DNA from: Blastopirellula sediminis
Lineage (GTDB): Bacteria > Planctomycetota > Planctomycetia > Pirellulales > Pirellulaceae
Assembly (NCBI RefSeq): GCF_020966755.1
Contig: NZ_JAJKFT010000004.1
Span: forward strand, 1,240,001-1,304,000
Length of the DNA: 64,000 bases
Direction of reading: 5' to 3'
The notes under the pieces were generated by a model. That model saw nothing but the letters and a program-made list of their open reading frames with translations, did no database searches and had not been told where the DNA came from. Shown here piece after piece: positions 4,348-29,226 of this stretch (the stretch's first letter is position 1; each line of letters starts with the position of its first letter). Both the position numbers and the translations under genes were made by a program.

Positions 4348-4770
4348 ATGGTAAAGCAGCTTTCTTCGGCGTTGGTCGCCATCTTGGTTTTCGGAACGCT
4401 CGCTCACGCCCAAAGTCCCTTCGCCTCCAGCCGCTCCTTTGGCGGACCAAGCTTCGGAGCCGGTGGATTCCGCGCGCCGAGCGTCATTAGCCGGCCTGGC
4501 TACCCGACGTATGGCGGCAGAATGAACTATTCCGCTCCGAACACCTACGGCGGTTTTCGCTACTACCAACCGGGCGGCGGCATGACCTACAGTTCGACCA
4601 GCGGCTACAGCGGACCCGACTACTACAACTTCTACCTGTACAACGGGCCGCGGAACTACATGACGAACAGCACGTTCTACCGTGGGCCGAATCCCGCCTA
4701 CGGCTACCAGCCGGGCGCCTTTAGCCCGCCGAGCGCCTTTGGGGGTGGTGGAACCGCGTTTGGGCATTGA
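4348..4770 (+). CDS. Small secreted Gly/Tyr/Ser/Pro-rich protein
   Basis: The start at 4348 follows a good ribosome binding site (GAGGAG near 4333) and gives a 140-residue protein with a signal peptide ending at AHA. The mature part is low in complexity and rich in Gly, Tyr, Phe, Ser and Pro, with many GG, YY and PG pairs, and almost no charged residues. Such composition is typical of surface or matrix-forming polypeptides. No family could be named. A hairpin downstream (4826-4853) may end the transcript. Confidence 0.75.
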   Translation: MVKQLSSALVAILVFGTLAHAQSPFASSRSFGGPSFGAGGFRAPSVISRPGYPTYGGRMNYSAPNTYGGFRYYQPGGGMTYSSTSGYSGPDYYNFYLYNGPRNYMTNSTFYRGPNPAYGYQPGAFSPPSAFGGGGTAFGH

Positions 4771-5146
4771 TTCTAGGCAGCTCGATCTCAGCGCCCCCAG
4801 CGACGATCCGCCGTAAGAACGAACCGCCGCCGCCGGAACCATCCGGGGCGGCGTTATGCGTTCAAGTCTCTCTTTTTCGCCAAAGTCCATGAATCGGCAG
4901 GAATTTTGACCACTTGTCGGCCTCAATTCCGCTTCTGTTTGTGGTAGGCGAATGACGGATCGCCCTTTTCACGCGGCTCAGGGTACGGATCTCATTCGTA
5001 CGTATAGGGTTAAGTGTCAATGTGGCGGCAAGTTGTGCGTTGGCCGGAACGACGAAACAGCTTCTCAAATGCACGACAACGCGGGCAGGTGGAGAAGTTC
5101 TCGCCTTACGGGGCGAACAGGGGCAGAGAGGAATAGGGAGAGAAAG
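4771..5146. other. Intergenic region
   Basis: A 376 bp stretch holding a GC-rich hairpin at 4826-4853 and the ribosome binding site (GGGAG) of the next small gene. Longer open frames cross it but show no coding features. Confidence 0.4.
4826..4853. terminator. GC-rich hairpin, possible terminator
   Basis: CGCCGCC and GGCGGCG arms with an inner CCGGA/TCCGG pairing form a stable stem 55 bp after the Gly/Tyr-rich gene. There is no clear T-run, so a terminator role is uncertain. Confidence 0.4.
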
Positions 5147-5350
5147 ATGGAGTCAGGGGTGATGGGGCCTGCGGTGATTCCGCTGACGCTGATCGTTAGC
5201 GGAATCGTTTGGAATACGGCCTGTTATATGATCGCTGGGAGGCCAGAGCCTTCGACACCGCGCGCGGATCGGTTGCGTTTGGTTGGTTGGATCGGCTACG
5301 GACTAGCGTTAGCGGTCGCAGCCGCGCTATTCGTCATACGATGGTGGTGA
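5147..5350 (+). CDS. Small two-helix membrane protein
   Basis: A 67-residue protein starting at an ATG preceded by GGGAGAG. Two hydrophobic segments (about residues 6-25 and 48-65) are joined by a short polar loop, and the C-terminus is VIRWW. It converges on the similarly small membrane gene at 5369-5554, only 18 bp away. Function is unknown and no family is recognised. Confidence 0.6.
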   Translation: MESGVMGPAVIPLTLIVSGIVWNTACYMIAGRPEPSTPRADRLRLVGWIGYGLALAVAAALFVIRWW

Positions 5351-5368
5351 CGTAGGAAACGCCGTAGG

Positions 5369-5554
5369 TCAGCTTTTCGCTCGAATTCGCCAGAGCCAAA
5401 CCGCCGCGGCACAGGCGCCCAAAGCCGTCGACAAATACAACGCTTGGCGTCCAACGCCAGCCGCTTCCGGCGTCACCGCAAAGAAGAATGCGGCGATCAA
5501 GACGTAGAGGCCCGCACAAAACAGGAGGACGTTCTTGCGGTCTTGAGATGTCAT
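5369..5554 (-). CDS. Small two-helix membrane protein
   Basis: 61 residues from MTSQDRK, with hydrophobic segments around residues 9-27 and 38-56, ending in WRIRAKS. A start seven codons further upstream is also possible. It converges with the preceding small membrane gene. Composition supports a genuine gene, but no function can be assigned. Confidence 0.55.
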   Translation of the reverse strand: MTSQDRKNVLLFCAGLYVLIAAFFFAVTPEAAGVGRQALYLSTALGACAAAVWLWRIRAKS

Positions 5555-5692: not shown

Positions 5693-7240
5693 CTAGTGGT
5701 GGATACGCAACGTGTTGATCGCCGCAGCGACCTGCTGATCGAGATCCGCCGCGGCGTCGATCTTGTGACTCTCCACGCCTTCCGGATCAGGTTCCTCCCG
5801 TTGTTGCTGTGCCGCCAAGATATCCAAGTGCGATTCCGAGAGGGAGTTCCCTTCCTGGGCTCGTCGCACGATTCGCACTTTGGCGATCTCTTCCGGACAC
5901 TCGCAAACCAGCAGCGCCGGCGTCGCGTTGTGTTGTTCGGCTAACTCGACGGCGCGACTTCGCTGGGCCGCAGTGAGAAACGTCCCGTCGATGATGGTTG
6001 AATGCCCTTGTTGCAAGCGCTCGGCTGCGGCGGAAAAGAGTTGGTCATAGACGAACTCCCGATTTTCCGGACGATAGATCGCCTGGCCGTAACCGGCGCG
6101 CTCGTCGCTAGCGCCGAATAACTCGCGGCGAATCGCGTCGGTTTGCAGATGGTCGACGGCGTAGGTTGCGGCCAGACGCTCGGCCAGCGTCGTTTTGCCG
6201 CTGCCGGTGAGCCCGCGGATGATGATCAATTGCGGACGGCTCAACTGCCGGGCCGCTTTGTCGGCGATCTCCAGCCGCGCTTGTGCGCCTGCGAGCAGAC
6301 TTCGCTGTACGTCTTCCGGCGCCGCGCCGGCTTGGATCGCGTTTACCTTGGCCCGCACGCAGGCCCGGTAACTGCGATAGAAGTGAGAGAGGGAGTCAGG
6401 CGGGTTGTCGTCGCTCGCTCCTTGGTAAGCCTCCAACAAAAACTCGCCAATCCAACCGGCGCCAAGCGTTTCGCATTCGACTGCAAAGAAACAGAGTTCG
6501 TCCCACAGATCGATCCGGCGGTAGTCGGCGTTAAACTCGATGCAGTCGATCACGACCGGTTCGGCGAGCAGAAACGCATGTTCAGGACGTAAGTCGCCGT
6601 GACCTTCCACAATTCGCCCTGACTCGACCCGCTCGTCAAAGAGATGGGGATGATGAAGGAGCAGCCGAAGCTGCGCTTGATGAATCCGGCGAATTGCGCC
6701 CTGATCGAGCGAAACGTCGCTATTGGCGAGATCATGCAAATTGCTGCGAACATGCTCCTCGAAATGGCGGCGATACTCGGCAGGTGCAATTTCTAGCGGA
6801 GGCTGAGCCGCGTAGAACCGCGAAAGGGTTTTCGCGAGCGGTTCGATGTCGTGCGGCTTCAGACGCTCTTCCGCAATCAGGCGGTCAAGCGAGCGATCGG
6901 CCGGCAGCCGCTTCATCTTCACCAGCCAATCGATGGGCGTCCCCTCGCCATCGATCGCCAAGCCGGCGTCCGACTGGGTGATCGGGACGACCCCGAGGTA
7001 CGTATCACCTCCCAGACGGCGATTCAGGCGCACTTCCGCTTCGCACGCCGCACGGCGCATTTGCGGCGTGTGAAAGTCGAGAAAGTCGAACCGGACCGGC
7101 TTCTTCAGCTTGTAAGCGAACCGATTGGTCAGAAAGATCCACGAAATGTGCGTCTCCAGACGCTCGACGCGGGTTGTGCCGTCCGCATAGGCGGACGGCG
7201 TCATAAGCCACTCGACGAGGGCGTCGGAATCAATCGACAT
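5693..7240 (-). CDS. APH-like kinase domain fused to P-loop NTPase (COG2187/COG0645 type)
   Basis: 515 residues from the ATG at 7240. The N-terminal two thirds look like an aminoglycoside-phosphotransferase-fold protein: YKLKKPVRFDF near residue 45, and HGDLRPEH near residues 214-221 in place of the usual HGDLHxxN catalytic loop. The C-terminal third is a P-loop domain with GLTGSGKT (about 343-350) and TIIDGTFL, as in small-molecule or gluconate-type kinases. This two-domain order is a known uncharacterised bacterial family, and its substrate is unknown. The gene lies 22 bp downstream of the YbaK-type gene and probably shares its transcript. Confidence 0.85.
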   Translation of the reverse strand: MSIDSDALVEWLMTPSAYADGTTRVERLETHISWIFLTNRFAYKLKKPVRFDFLDFHTPQMRRAACEAEVRLNRRLGGDTYLGVVPITQSDAGLAIDGEGTPIDWLVKMKRLPADRSLDRLIAEERLKPHDIEPLAKTLSRFYAAQPPLEIAPAEYRRHFEEHVRSNLHDLANSDVSLDQGAIRRIHQAQLRLLLHHPHLFDERVESGRIVEGHGDLRPEHAFLLAEPVVIDCIEFNADYRRIDLWDELCFFAVECETLGAGWIGEFLLEAYQGASDDNPPDSLSHFYRSYRACVRAKVNAIQAGAAPEDVQRSLLAGAQARLEIADKAARQLSRPQLIIIRGLTGSGKTTLAERLAATYAVDHLQTDAIRRELFGASDERAGYGQAIYRPENREFVYDQLFSAAAERLQQGHSTIIDGTFLTAAQRSRAVELAEQHNATPALLVCECPEEIAKVRIVRRAQEGNSLSESHLDILAAQQQREEPDPEGVESHKIDAAADLDQQVAAAINTLRIHH

Positions 7241-7262
7241 ATCGTTGTTGTTTCTGGTCGCG

Positions 7263-7721
7263 TTAGCGGGCGAAATGGCCGACCAACGGCGATTCAATCA
7301 TGCGGAAATCGCTCGCGGTCATCTGGATCGCCTCGTGGTGCGTGTTGCCTTCAAACACGATATTCTCGTATTCCAGCAGGCTCGCGTCCATAATCGTATG
7401 CATATGGTACTGCGAACCAAACGGGGGCAACGCGCCCACTTCGCAATCGGGACAATGTTGAGAGATTTGCTCCTCGGTGGCGAGCGTCAACTTGCAATCG
7501 CCGAGCATCTGCGCCGCGGCCCTCAAATCGACCGACTTATCGGCCGGCAAGACCGCCACGACCGAGGTGTAGTCTCCATCTGCATTCAGCAAAACCGTCT
7601 TGGCGACTTGATGTCCAGACACCCCAAGCGTCTGTGCCAGACGATTGGCGCCGTAGGCGTTCGGGTGCAGGATCTTCTCAAAGTTGACCTGTTTTTCATG
7701 CAGGTATTCGGTGACGTTCAT
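7263..7721 (-). CDS. YbaK/ProX-type aminoacyl-tRNA deacylase-like protein
   Basis: The start at 7721 is set by a strong ribosome binding site (GAAGGAG). The 152-residue protein has the YbaK/EbsC fold pattern: an early HPNAYGANRLAQ segment, VAKTVLLNADG containing the conserved Lys, AVLPADKSVDLRAAA, and the GALPPFGSQY motif near residue 107. Family members hydrolyse mischarged aminoacyl-tRNAs in trans, but which tRNA this one acts on cannot be read from sequence. It is the first gene of a probable two-gene unit with the kinase-like gene downstream. Confidence 0.88.
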   Translation of the reverse strand: MNVTEYLHEKQVNFEKILHPNAYGANRLAQTLGVSGHQVAKTVLLNADGDYTSVVAVLPADKSVDLRAAAQMLGDCKLTLATEEQISQHCPDCEVGALPPFGSQYHMHTIMDASLLEYENIVFEGNTHHEAIQMTASDFRMIESPLVGHFAR

Positions 7722-25335: not shown

Positions 25336-26004
25336 TGGTACGTACTCCCAAAGCCAGTCTTCTGTTTAATGCCAACCCAAAACTGGAATGTCGAGGCGGC
25401 ATCGTGATGGAACTGGAAGGAGTGACTAGAGAACTTTCCACGAAGCGTTTTGTTGAGAGGATCAGGATCCGCTGGATCAATGTACATCGGCGGGGTGGCA
25501 CTGTTAGCCAATCACTTTCTTCGGGCGCCACTGTCGTCTGCGACAGTGCTCTTCAACCAGTTCACGCGATGGGGTTGGTATCGCAAAACGTCCAGGCAAT
25601 TACGATCCAGCCATTCTTTTGACTTCCCCTCCACAATGCAATACTGTGCTGAACTGAAGCTCTACCGGCAGGCAAAAGACACTGTCGCAGACGACAGTGG
25701 CGCCCGAAGCAAGAAACGTTAACAGTGCCACCCTGCCGCGATTAACATCGTCGTCATGAACCCTCGAAGCCCGCGCATTGGGTCATCAAGGGGAGTTTGG
25801 TTTGCGGTTAGATTGGCCACGAACATCTAAACGCTCGGATGGAAGTGGTTCTAGCGAAGTAGTAGTGTACGCTGGGGCGACGCCCACCACACTAAGTTTT
25901 TTCCGGGAAAGGAGAGTAAGCGTCGCTTTACCCGTGAAGTTCTTATGCATGTACGAACCGTCCCGTCCTAACGCCCTACGATGTAAAGCGACAAAGGAAT
26001 AGCC
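25336..26004. other. Intergenic region containing a MITE-like element
   Basis: 669 bp between the LRR gene and the DUF4240 gene. Most of the middle is the inverted-repeat element described separately. The remainder (25754-26004) holds a weak palindrome around 25866-25890 and the ribosome binding site region of the DUF4240 gene. Confidence 0.5.
25480..25753. mobile_element. MITE-like element with long terminal inverted repeats
   Basis: Two arms of about 60 bp in inverted orientation (about 25491-25549 and 25680-25735) share GGGTGGCACTGTTA, then about 10 variable bases, then CTTCGGGCG and the 20-bp CACTGTCG...CGACAGTG core. Weaker similarity (ATGT-ATCG) extends each arm outwards. About 130 bp lie between the arms and encode nothing convincing. 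Size and structure fit a non-autonomous, transposase-less element. No clear target-site duplication was found. Confidence 0.65.
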
Positions 26005-26502
26005 ATGGATCGAGAACAGTTCTGGACAATGGTCGATCAGAGCAGACGCGGAACCGATCGTATTGATGAGCAACTCGGTAAGCTGATCGCTCTCGTCACA
26101 ACGCTCGACACAGAAGAGATTCTCGCCTTTGACCGCTGCTTTCACGAATGCGTGCGGGACGCGTTTCGGTCCGACTTGTGGGCGGCGGCCTACATCATCA
26201 ATGGCGGCTGTTCTGACGATGGTTTCGACTACTTTCTCGGGTGGCTCATCACCCAGGGGCACGCCTATTATCTGGCGGCATTGGAAAACCCCGAGCGAGC
26301 CGGGGATCGCGTCGAACCAGGCGATTTTGTTGAGTGCGGAACGATGTGGTCCGTCGCCGCTCTGGCGTACGAAAAGAAGACGGGAAATTCCGATTTTTAC
26401 GACATCGCCCCGGTTGTCCCCCGTACGTTGATCGGCGAGTTATTCGACGAAGAGAATGTCGCTGCTCTCTACCCTGAACTCGCAAAACGATTTCGATTCT
26501 GA
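26005..26502 (+). CDS. DUF4240 domain protein
   Basis: 165 residues starting MDREQFWTMVDQSRRG, the usual opening of DUF4240 proteins. Conserved-looking blocks are LDTEEILAFDRCFHE, RSDLWAAAYIINGGCSDDGFDYFLGWLI and GHAYYLAALENPE. Most of the family are stand-alone cytosolic proteins; some associate with polymorphic-toxin or immunity contexts. No toxin gene is visible here. It stands alone between repeat-rich intergenic regions. Confidence 0.85.
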   Translation: MDREQFWTMVDQSRRGTDRIDEQLGKLIALVTTLDTEEILAFDRCFHECVRDAFRSDLWAAAYIINGGCSDDGFDYFLGWLITQGHAYYLAALENPERAGDRVEPGDFVECGTMWSVAALAYEKKTGNSDFYDIAPVVPRTLIGELFDEENVAALYPELAKRFRF

Positions 26503-27837
26503 TTGGAACCGAAGAGGAGTTGCGTAGGGCCGGGGCGAAGTTGCTATACGTGACGCCCGAAAAGGGATGGGCGTCTGTGCCACTCTGCCGCTCAATCGGT
26601 GCTACTCATCCACCGCAACCGCGGCCCCAACATTCTTGCTTGACAAAGCGCACGGATTCGTGATCGATTGCGGGGTGCTGTTCGTCGCGCTGCGAGAGAT
26701 CGGGCGGCGGGCAGCGCCGCGGGTTCCTAAAGCGTCGGGTGGCAACCGACGGGGCTCCGAAAAAAAATGCGCGGTCCAGTCCACTGTTCGTTTCGGCGCA
26801 AAAGAATCGTGTGGGTCCGGTTGGCAATTTCCGTGATGAAAAAAAAGTGCGGTCCAGTCCACTCGGTCATAAAAAAATGAAACGCTGCAGTCCACATGCT
26901 GGGAGGTGTAGGAGAGATGCGAAAGCATCGAAAGGCTGCCGTTTATCAGGCGAGCGTTTTTAACGTCTTCAGATTGCTGCCGGAAAAAAAGTGCGCCGTC
27001 GAGTCCACTGTTCGTTTGGGGGCGAACGGTCGTTTGGTTGATGGGGATGAAAAAAATTGCGTGCGGTCCAGTCCACTCCGTGGATCAAAAAAATGGAGCG
27101 CAGCGGTCCACATCATGGGTGGACTGGGCAGGATGCGAGGCGGCTAGATTTGCCTTGTTAGTCACGCGAGCTTTGGAGACGGAAAAAAAGATGCGCCGCG
27201 GTCCAGTCCGGTGGTTGAAGACATGCTCTTCTCGGGAAGACACGATAAGAGCATGGCGCCAGTCACCAGGAGGCAGAAAAAAAATGCGCTGCGGTCCAGT
27301 CCACTCACAGGCGGTGGTTGATCGATTGGACACGCGGATGGCGCTGCATCTTGTCGCTGCGCGACCCGCCCGGTTTTGGGAAGCCGGACGGGCCACCCGG
27401 TGAAAAAAAATTGGCGATCTGGTCCAGTCCTGGTTAGCGAGCCGACGGGGCGTCCCCGGCGATTCCGGCTTCCTTAGACATTAGTTATTAGGCATTCGTC
27501 ATTTCCCCGATCTTGCGGCCGCATTCCCTCGGCTCGCGCCTCGGGTTAGTGTTCGTTGGCGTTTCGGTCAGTGGCCTGGATCTTGCCGCTAATGGGTTGA
27601 ATTCTTCTTTCCTGGGGGCGGCGGAGGGAGAATTGGGTCGATTGGGGCGTTTTGACCAGATTAAGGGGGCTTTTCAATTACGCAAAAACTAGACAAGGGG
27701 AAGCATTTCTACGTAACTGCTGATTGATTGGTGGGAGAAACTAGTTTAGGCTGTGGGTTTGGGAATTTTCCCTCTCCTGCCCAAAGATTCTCACCTCTTG
27801 CATTTCTATCTCTAAGATTCCGGAGGATACCCGCCTC
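26503..27837. other. 1.3 kb gene-free region
   Basis: No open frame has coding character on either strand. The central part carries the A-tract/GGTCCAGTCC array (26757-27435). At 26571-26600 a short GTGCCACTCTGCCGC stretch resembles the outer end of the MITE-like element. The last 350 bp probably contain the promoter and leader of the oxidoreductase gene, with its ribosome binding site GGAGG near 27821. Confidence 0.6.
26757..27435 (+). repeat. Array of A-tract plus GGTCCAGTCC units
   Basis: At least seven main units and two shorter ones in the same orientation. Each has a run of 7-8 A, then TGCG or similar, then GGTCCAGTCC, usually followed by ACT. Exact GGTCCAGTCC occurs at 26773, 26851, 27065, 27200, 27293 and 27421. 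Variants occur near 26887, 26997 and 27103. Spacing is irregular (36 to about 135 bp), unlike CRISPR. A higher-order duplication of about 214-224 bp is evident: units at 26773/26851/26887 correspond in order to 26997/27065/27103, including shared flanks such as CACTGTTCGTTT and CAGTCCACAT/CGGTCCACAT. Confidence 0.8.
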
Positions 27838-29226
27838 ATGTCACAAGAGTCCAGCGCGAAACCCGCCGAACAAACCAGCGACGCCTCGACGTCGTCACGG
27901 CGCAATTTCATTAAGACCAGCTCTTCCCTGTTGATCGCCGGCGGCGCGATGGCAGGCTCGTTGCCGCTGGCCCGTGCGGCGCATGTCTTCGGCAGCGACG
28001 TGATCAAACTTGGTCTGGTTGGTTGCGGCGGTCGCGGTACCGGCGCTGCGACGCAGGCGATGAACACCGAAGGCCCGACCAAGCTGATCGCGATGGGCGA
28101 TGCGTTTGGCGATCGTCTCCAATCGTGCTTGCGCGGCGTCACCTCGCGTCATGCCGACAAAGTCGACGTTCCGCAAGAGCGTCAGTTCGTCGGTTTCGAC
28201 GCTTATAAGAAGGTGCTCGAACAAGACATCGACCTGGTCATCCTGGCGACCCCGCCTGGCTTCCGCCCGCTCCACTTCGAAGCGGCCGTCAACGCCGGCA
28301 AGCACGTCTTCATGGAAAAGCCGGTCGCGACCGACGCCCCGGGGATCCGCCGCGTGTTGGCCGCCAACGAAATCGCCAAGCAGAAGAACCTGGCGGTCGC
28401 CGTCGGTCTGCAACGTCACCATGAGCCGCGTTATGTCGAAACGATCAAGCGTCTGCACGACGGCGCGATCGGCGACATCATTTTCGCCCGCGCTTACTGG
28501 AACAATGACGGCGTCTGGATGAACACCCGCGACGCCAAGCAGACCGAACTCGAATACCAAATGCGCAACTGGTACTACTTCAACTGGCTCTGCGGCGACC
28601 ATATCGTCGAGCAGCACATCCACAACCTGGACGTGATCAACTGGTTGATGCAAGGCTATCCGACCATGGCCGAAGGCATGGGCGGTCGCGAAGTTCGCGT
28701 CGGCAAAGACAGCGGTCAGATCTTCGACCACCACATGATCGAGTTCACCTACGGCGATCATGGCAGCGGCACGAAGATGATGAGCTGCTGCCGCCACCAG
28801 CCGAAGACCTGGAGCAGCGTCTCGGAACATGCTCACGGTACCAAAGGCTACTGCGACATCAGCGGCGCCAAGATCTTCAAGCCGAACGGCGAAGTCGCTT
28901 GGGCCTATGGCAACGGCGGCGGCAACGGTCACCAGGAAGAGCACCACGACCTGTTTGCGGCGCTGCGTCGCGGCGAAATCCCGAACGAAGGGGAATACGG
29001 CGCGATGAGCACCATGACCGCGATCTTCGGTCGTATGGCGACCTACTCGGGCAAGAACCTGAGCTGGGACGAAGCGTTCAACTCGCAAGAGGCGCTCGCC
29101 GACTTCGACAAGCTGACCGCGATGGCGGACGAAGCTCCGGTTCAACAGAACCCGGAAGGGAAGCCGACCCGCGTCGACGGTTCGCCCTACCCGACGCCGA
29201 TTCCGGGCAAGACCGTCAAGGTTTAA
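27838..29226 (+). CDS. Tat-exported Gfo/Idh/MocA family oxidoreductase
   Basis: 462 residues. A twin-arginine signal (SSRRNFIKTSSSLLIAGG, Arg pair at 21-22) is followed by the Rossmann motif GLVGCGGRGTGA (about 59-70), then VILATPPGFRPLHFEAAVNAG, the cofactor/substrate motif MEKPVATD, and the C-terminal alpha/beta domain. Ribosome binding site GGAGG precedes the ATG. Family members use NAD(P) to oxidise or reduce sugars and related compounds. Planctomycetes have many exported copies of unknown substrate. A terminator follows. Confidence 0.93.
   Translation: MSQESSAKPAEQTSDASTSSRRNFIKTSSSLLIAGGAMAGSLPLARAAHVFGSDVIKLGLVGCGGRGTGAATQAMNTEGPTKLIAMGDAFGDRLQSCLRGVTSRHADKVDVPQERQFVGFDAYKKVLEQDIDLVILATPPGFRPLHFEAAVNAGKHVFMEKPVATDAPGIRRVLAANEIAKQKNLAVAVGLQRHHEPRYVETIKRLHDGAIGDIIFARAYWNNDGVWMNTRDAKQTELEYQMRNWYYFNWLCGDHIVEQHIHNLDVINWLMQGYPTMAEGMGGREVRVGKDSGQIFDHHMIEFTYGDHGSGTKMMSCCRHQPKTWSSVSEHAHGTKGYCDISGAKIFKPNGEVAWAYGNGGGNGHQEEHHDLFAALRRGEIPNEGEYGAMSTMTAIFGRMATYSGKNLSWDEAFNSQEALADFDKLTAMADEAPVQQNPEGKPTRVDGSPYPTPIPGKTVKV

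Follow-up and report, generated by a model that had tools for sequence, protein, structure and literature searches.

The window, a 64-kb stretch from a 7.05-Mb Blastopirellula genome (G000), contains a region between the end of an upstream gene at 26502 and a gene start near 27838 in which a simple gene caller called no gene, as the first-pass annotation had indicated. Nine A-tract units are located on the plus strand of this region at 26760-27430. Six of them have the exact core GGTCCAGTCC, which starts at 26773, 26851, 27065, 27200, 27293, and 27421, whereas the other three are variants with their own A7 tracts at ~26884, 26997, and 27104, as recognized by inspection of the sequence. The count of six exact and three variant units, each with its tract of 7-8 A, their single orientation, and the absence of the exact core from the rest of the window all agree with that annotation. 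When one mismatch was allowed, the core gave 10 matches in the window against 3.36 expected, and 10 or more were reached in none of 100 shuffles. The unit spacings recorded are 78, 146, 68, 135, and 93. A promoter-like block lies upstream on the same strand, and the distance from this block to the first core is 133 (Table 1).

Table 1. Features of the array region (positions in the window)
Feature	Position	Strand	Basis or remark
Promoter-like block TTGACAAAGCGCACGGATTCGTGATCGATT	26640..26669	+	-35-like element at 26640-26645; -10 position TCGATT at 26664-26669
Presumed transcribed leader, block to first unit	26670..26759	+	position inferred from block
Unit 1: A8 + TGCGC + GGTCCAGTCC, then ACTGTTCGTTT module	26760..26782	+	sequence
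Unit 2: A8 + GTGC + GGTCCAGTCC	26839..26860	+	sequence
Unit 3: variant, GCTGCAGTCC	26871..26893	+	sequence
Unit 4: variant, CGTCGAGTCC	26984..27006	+	sequence
Unit 5: A7 + GGTCCAGTCC	27050..27074	+	sequence
Unit 6: variant	27087..27111	+	GGTCCAC able to pair with GTGGACT at ~27119
Unit 7: A7 + GGTCCAGTCC	27183..27209	+	sequence
Unit 8: A8 + GGTCCAGTCC	27277..27302	+	sequence
Unit 9: A8 + GGTCCAGTCC	27403..27430	+	sequence

A segmental duplication had been proposed within the array. Both pairs of blocks are real: 26759-26802 and 26983-27026 are 86% alike, and 26871-26922 and 27087-27138 are 75% alike. However, they are better regarded as recurring modules. The module beginning with ACTGTTCGTTT occurs 28 times in 19 of 47 G000 loci, with GTCC directly before 27 of the occurrences, and the hairpin block GGTCCAC...GTGGACTGG occurs 23 times, also in 19 of 47 loci; up to six substitutions were allowed in each case. 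The GTGGACTGGG arm of unit 6 was reported as paired with unit 5. Outside the array, a hairpin element around CACTGTCG...CGACAGTG was seen by eye at 25520-25549 and 25680-25709, the two copies being inverted relative to each other; this is apparently another intergenic repeat.

The array is one of approximately 45 intergenic arrays in G000. In the whole genome, GGTCCAGTCC occurs exactly 151 times, largely in clusters, against 32 times for the reversed word. When an A tract was required with the core, there were 242 matches in G000 (overlapping starts counted) against 1 for the control, and 176, 247, and 89 matches in three other genomes of the genus (G001-G003; G002 is Blastopirellula marina DSM 3645). 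Beyond the genus, 1-2 matches were found in 5 of the 56 genomes searched. The motif is thus multi-copy in each genome of the genus, and the searched relatives have almost none of it. In G000, 46 places (L009-L054) were fetched, chosen by units only, and 43 of these and the window gave units; L011, L026, and L034 have isolated words without units, and L014 has a single unit. With two later-fetched places included, there are 45 noncoding and 13 coding elements in G000, where one of the noncoding elements (L179) contains an ATPase fragment and the place lists are not exhaustive. The array counts for G001-G003 are lower bounds, because the loci were taken from listed exact-word matches (in G002, from 20 of about 29 listed places).

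All 207 units of the 44 G000 arrays lie on the strand of their array, and their spacing is irregular, with a mode of 35-38 nt. This is in accordance with the earlier view that the array in the window is neither a CRISPR, a feature of which is regular repeat-spacer spacing, nor a simple REP, since REPIN/BIME units are palindromic or paired in inverted orientation. The strands of the neighbouring genes look random, with same-strand genes upstream in 24 and downstream in 18 of the 44 arrays, and a gene-neighbour rule was dropped. The array L102 of G002 has 28 counted units, largely in tandem with a period of 39 nt. In two other B. marina loci, a 432-codon transposase gene lies between two parts of an array (L104, 4520-5818; L111, 4288-5586), and a DDE domain was detected in the L104 copy.

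At the head of most arrays stands a promoter-like block, TTGACAAAGCGCACGGANTNGTGGTCGATT, which is on the array strand and usually precedes the first unit by 100-330 nt. The approximate consensus of this block (type I; the GGTCGATT block) is TTGTCNNTTGACAAAGCGCACGGANTTGTGGTCGATT. The copy in the window has one mismatch to the family word, for which 0.00 matches were expected in shuffles. Counts of the 15-base block word in the four genus genomes are 39, 30, 21, and 19; among 292 other genomes of the order, three have the word, with a single occurrence in each. A same-strand type I block was found within 900 nt upstream of 91 of the 128 arrays with two or more units: 30 of 43 in G000, 23 of 33 in G001, 15 of 22 in G002, and 23 of 30 in G003. 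Among the fetched places, L084, L105-L108, and L154 were picked by the block itself, and those of G000 by units only. The remaining 37 arrays have no recognizable type I block, and some arrays of this kind start with a different promoter-like sequence having a TATA-like -10 (by eye). In 86 of the 91 block-headed arrays the block is 90-330 nt before the first core; the range of leader distances is partly a matter of choice, because the 86 type I leaders are those with a block at this distance. The block word is the search word itself (up to two mismatches), and the conservation outside this word amounts to 32.8 bits. The loci fetched by then contain 124 distinct block-like words. Units follow 97 of these, ATPase genes follow 13 (10 genes, tandem blocks being present at some), and a phage portal gene follows 1; the other 13 precede none of these, and several of them are within other genes. 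Judging from its position and form, the type I block is a putative promoter. However, its -10 position, TCGATT, does not resemble that of sigma-70 promoters, and no promoter was found when 26400-27900 was scanned with a consensus.

A second type of leader is common to noncoding and coding loci; it opens with a hairpin that has UGAUCA as its loop word. The stems of this hairpin differ among subtypes but still pair. Cognate arms pair better than swapped ones: 11 of 5000 permutations were as good in a set of 12 leaders selected in part by folding energy, and 0 of 5000 in a set selected without the energy filter (n = 17; this test drew on 18 leaders, of which L029 and L091 may not belong). The invariance of the loop is no evidence, because the second-type leaders were found by TGATCA. 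From 21 rows of such leaders, we removed 7 that lay away from any element, and L053 was included as well; 15 leaders, including that of the coding locus L064, were aligned, and their RNAalifold consensus was weak (-6.77 kcal/mol). In the type I leaders, a motif near CTCTTTGAAAATT, selected after inspection of these same leaders, is present in 22 of 86 (up to three mismatches); shuffled sequences gave 1.25, and the reverse strand gave 0. We take this motif to resemble the boxA antitermination site. Two exact GCTCTTTGANAATT sites exist in G000, one in a type I leader and the other just past the last unit of another array. The folding energy shows no strand preference: the mean z values for 42 arrays are -1.95 on the plus strand and -2.02 on the minus strand.

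The blocks and leaders of the arrays also stand in front of helicase-like ATPase genes (DnaB-N/AAA_25) of ~400-640 codons, which form an amplified family. By our own grouping, these genes occupy 11-16 distinct places per genus genome (22, 16, 14, and 17 match rows), and 1-3 rows were found in 19 of 115 other genomes of the family, with up to 11 candidates scored per genome. One of the B. marina genes lies at G002:C1:682828-684366. AAA_25 was above the cut-off in all five ATPase proteins scanned and the DnaB N-terminal domain in two of the five; these Pfam domains place the ATPase in the DnaB/AAA_25 helicase family. The C-terminal region is helix-turn-helix-like in our reading, and there is a variable tail. 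In eight genomes of other genera, our own gene caller gave the homologues a length of 378-776 codons, and at least two of them begin like prim-pol proteins (by eye); the GTCCRGTCC core was not found near these homologues. The PADLOC models of known anti-phage systems gave no match for three ATPase proteins, and the PDB gave no sequence match for one (E up to 0.01).

Units within the ORF were found in 21 of the 36 coding loci examined, all of them within the last 23% of the ATPase ORF, and 15 loci have none by the strict test. The 35 separate in-ORF units are distributed over frames 0, 1, and 2 as 4, 14, and 17 (the raw tally of 5/17/17 includes overlapping matches), and seven coding loci have separate units in two or more frames. 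A peptide constraint would hold the units in one frame. Therefore, the motif is kept as nucleic acid and not as peptide. A coding reading of the array in the window was rejected on these three frames and on the lack of a gene call described above. In L154 of G003, a csrA-like short ORF (7092-7472, by eye) is directly downstream of the coding element.

A syntenic element in another species exists for 31 of the 58 fetched G000 elements. Among 65 syntenic pairs, 57 keep side and orientation, five are flipped on the same side (these come from two slots), and three are on the other side. Four slots differ in kind between species, being array-only in one and coding in another; in this count L106 and L198, which hold ATPase matches, were taken as coding. 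In 26 syntenic pairs hand-picked from the synteny listing for gap alignment, the type I block is present in both species in 18 (17 of which align at the block), in neither in three, and in one only in five. The slot of the window is among these five: its counterpart, L094, has a different leader type and is without the type I block. Many of the 26 pairs align at units; L020/L139 and L040/L065 have no alignable unit among the matches listed. What aligns in the noncoding gap of the more distant pairs is mostly the block and the units, and longer leader alignments are seen in the close pair G002/G003. The block and the repeats of the array look preserved by evolution. The elements are resident, with signs of constraint, but the occupants of the slots are exchanged, and exchange between copies could itself keep the element parts alike.

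No credible remnant of the ATPase core was detected in 43 array-only intervals: there were 17 matches at E up to 1, all short, the best at 0.01. The arrays therefore do not look like fresh decay. Decayed ATPase genes were rejected as an explanation of these intervals, the core matches being weak and partly on both strands. Queries with the ATPase tail gave 119 weak matches, in 32 intervals on the plus strand and in 22 on the minus strand.

In a prophage of B. marina DSM 3645 (L055/L190; NZ_CH672376.1, ~3.97 Mb), the block occurs twice between the terminase and portal genes. One copy is the end of a 53-codon helix-turn-helix-like ORF, and the other starts 37 nt before the portal start. Only one viral contig has the block, and over 13,855 bases its sequence is identical to that of this prophage. 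The phage link is a single case. The unit pattern was found in nine viral contigs, with one unit in each and no array.

The typical element consists of a promoter-like block, a leader of usually 100-330 nt, and several direct copies of A tract, short gap, and GGTCCAGTCC, all on the same strand. In the coding subset, the same blocks and leaders precede a DnaB-N/AAA_25 ATPase gene, and many of these genes have units near the 3' end. On this basis, the array in the window may well belong, as one copy, to a multi-locus family of transcribed elements that is specific to Blastopirellula and mostly noncoding, and we favour this reading tentatively, at somewhat less than an even chance. An RNA carrying the units is the simplest account, because the block and the same-strand downstream units are jointly conserved in loci without a gene. 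The type I block would act as a promoter, the array would be transcribed as a long untranslated RNA, and the units would serve as repeated sites for docking, placed near the 3' end in the noncoding RNAs as well as in the ATPase mRNAs. The existence of coding members suggests the ATPase, or a common factor, as the reader of the units; the docking factor might be a common protein, for which the ATPase family itself is the most plausible candidate. The noncoding members might then act as decoys or partners of the coding members, or be their non-autonomous passengers. It is doubtful that they make up a genus-wide RNA system, in which ~45 array-only elements of G000 would yield long untranslated RNAs that bind the ATPase in trans, the promoter, the structured leader, and the repeated GGUCCAGUCC sites being common with the ATPase mRNAs.

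The units might instead act in the DNA, as iteron-like docking sites for the ATPase, which would once have been the replication helicase of a phage or plasmid. The elements would then be resident mini-satellites, perhaps activated together with a prophage. This seems rather unlikely, and yet it keeps substantial weight, as does a selfish role, because the folding energies do not separate the strands and the RNA account is one that we infer. The units are directly repeated in one orientation, each adjoining an A tract, and the arrays resemble iteron-type origins in having direct repeats beside A-rich DNA and a replication-type helicase in the family: the ATPase has AAA_25 and partly DnaB-N domains, and its PHROGs matches are to primase/helicase families. 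The two copies of the block at the terminase-portal junction also count in favour of this reading, but this is the only prophage case. An iteron system has direct repeats with a cognate initiator gene nearby; here the direct repeats are present, and an ATPase gene is found at the coding loci only. Unlike such origins, the arrays are chromosomal and occupy more than 40 loci, most of them without a gene. Furthermore, a search of the plasmid collection with the ATPase gave nothing at E 1e-5, a single-sequence query against viral contigs yielded no close relative, and the noncoding elements keep the promoter-like block too, which would be unneeded for docking on DNA alone.

It is unlikely that the family consists of repeats that are selfish or relics, without present function, and have spread through ectopic recombination and gene conversion. 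Such repeats would account for the change of slot occupants between species, as in the five of 26 pairs, including that of the window, with the type I block in one species only, in the four slots that are array-only or coding depending on the species, and in the five flipped pairs; the local expansion to 28 units in L102 and the transposase genes in L104 and L111 are also in their favour. However, the block and units are often the alignable part of a diverged gap, although concerted exchange could also produce this, and the units are kept across reading frames. In addition, the lack of a credible ATPase core remnant is unlike fresh decay. Far less probable is a terminator series or phased bent DNA, both of which the first-pass annotation had raised. 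Every unit has an A tract, and the modal spacing of 35-38 nt is accompanied by a weak helical phase (Rayleigh R 0.15-0.23 at periods 10-11), so that bending finds weak support; the spacing is nevertheless irregular. Serial transcription stops on the minus strand were not borne out: no terminator-like site coincides with any unit in 26400-27900, and the GC hairpin and T-run of an intrinsic terminator were not found at the units of the window. Both ideas leave the core and the linked block unexplained. A protein-binding array and an expanding repeat had also been listed there, correctly, as possible; the same-strand block at 26640, the sister arrays, the unit-bearing ATPase genes, and the conservation across species are additions of the present analysis.

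The family of transcribed elements that we favour shares features with several other known systems. Like REPIN/RAYT, it has many intergenic noncoding copies, slots common to species, and a related protein family in the same genome; it differs in that the array units are direct, a promoter-like block stands at the head, and the partner would be a multi-copy ATPase that itself carries block and units. The proposed mode, one RNA with many short copies of a motif, is that of CsrB/RsmZ-type RNAs, but the arrays are found at dozens of loci, have a different motif, and include a coding subset, and binding is here a proposal. As in LINE/SINE-like pairs, the coding and noncoding members have a common 5' promoter region and a common 3' tail motif; unlike in these, no reverse transcriptase domain was detected in the coding members scanned, and many slots are common to species. 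Rfam gave no match at the gathering score in 14 fetched loci scanned whole, three sub-threshold matches (E 0.99 or worse) in the window at 26000-28500, and none in L037 at 4600-5400. No description of these arrays was found among the open-licence papers listed. A 'Rhodopirellula-1' motif has been named in Proteobacteria and Planctomycetes (PMC2864571).

This large family of intergenic elements links dozens of noncoding loci with an amplified ATPase of the replication type, and in one species also with a prophage. Should the units act in RNA, the family would be a noncoding RNA system of a kind unusual in bacteria, its coding and noncoding members being made of the same parts; should they act in DNA, it would be a chromosomal satellite family.

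A variant of the unit, GGTCCGGTCC followed by YATTTTT, was seen in 11 cases in nine G000 loci (L012, L014, L021, L022, L030, L031, L040, L042, and L188). Among the array loci scanned it is confined to G000, and eight of the 11 cases are without a further unit within 500 nt.
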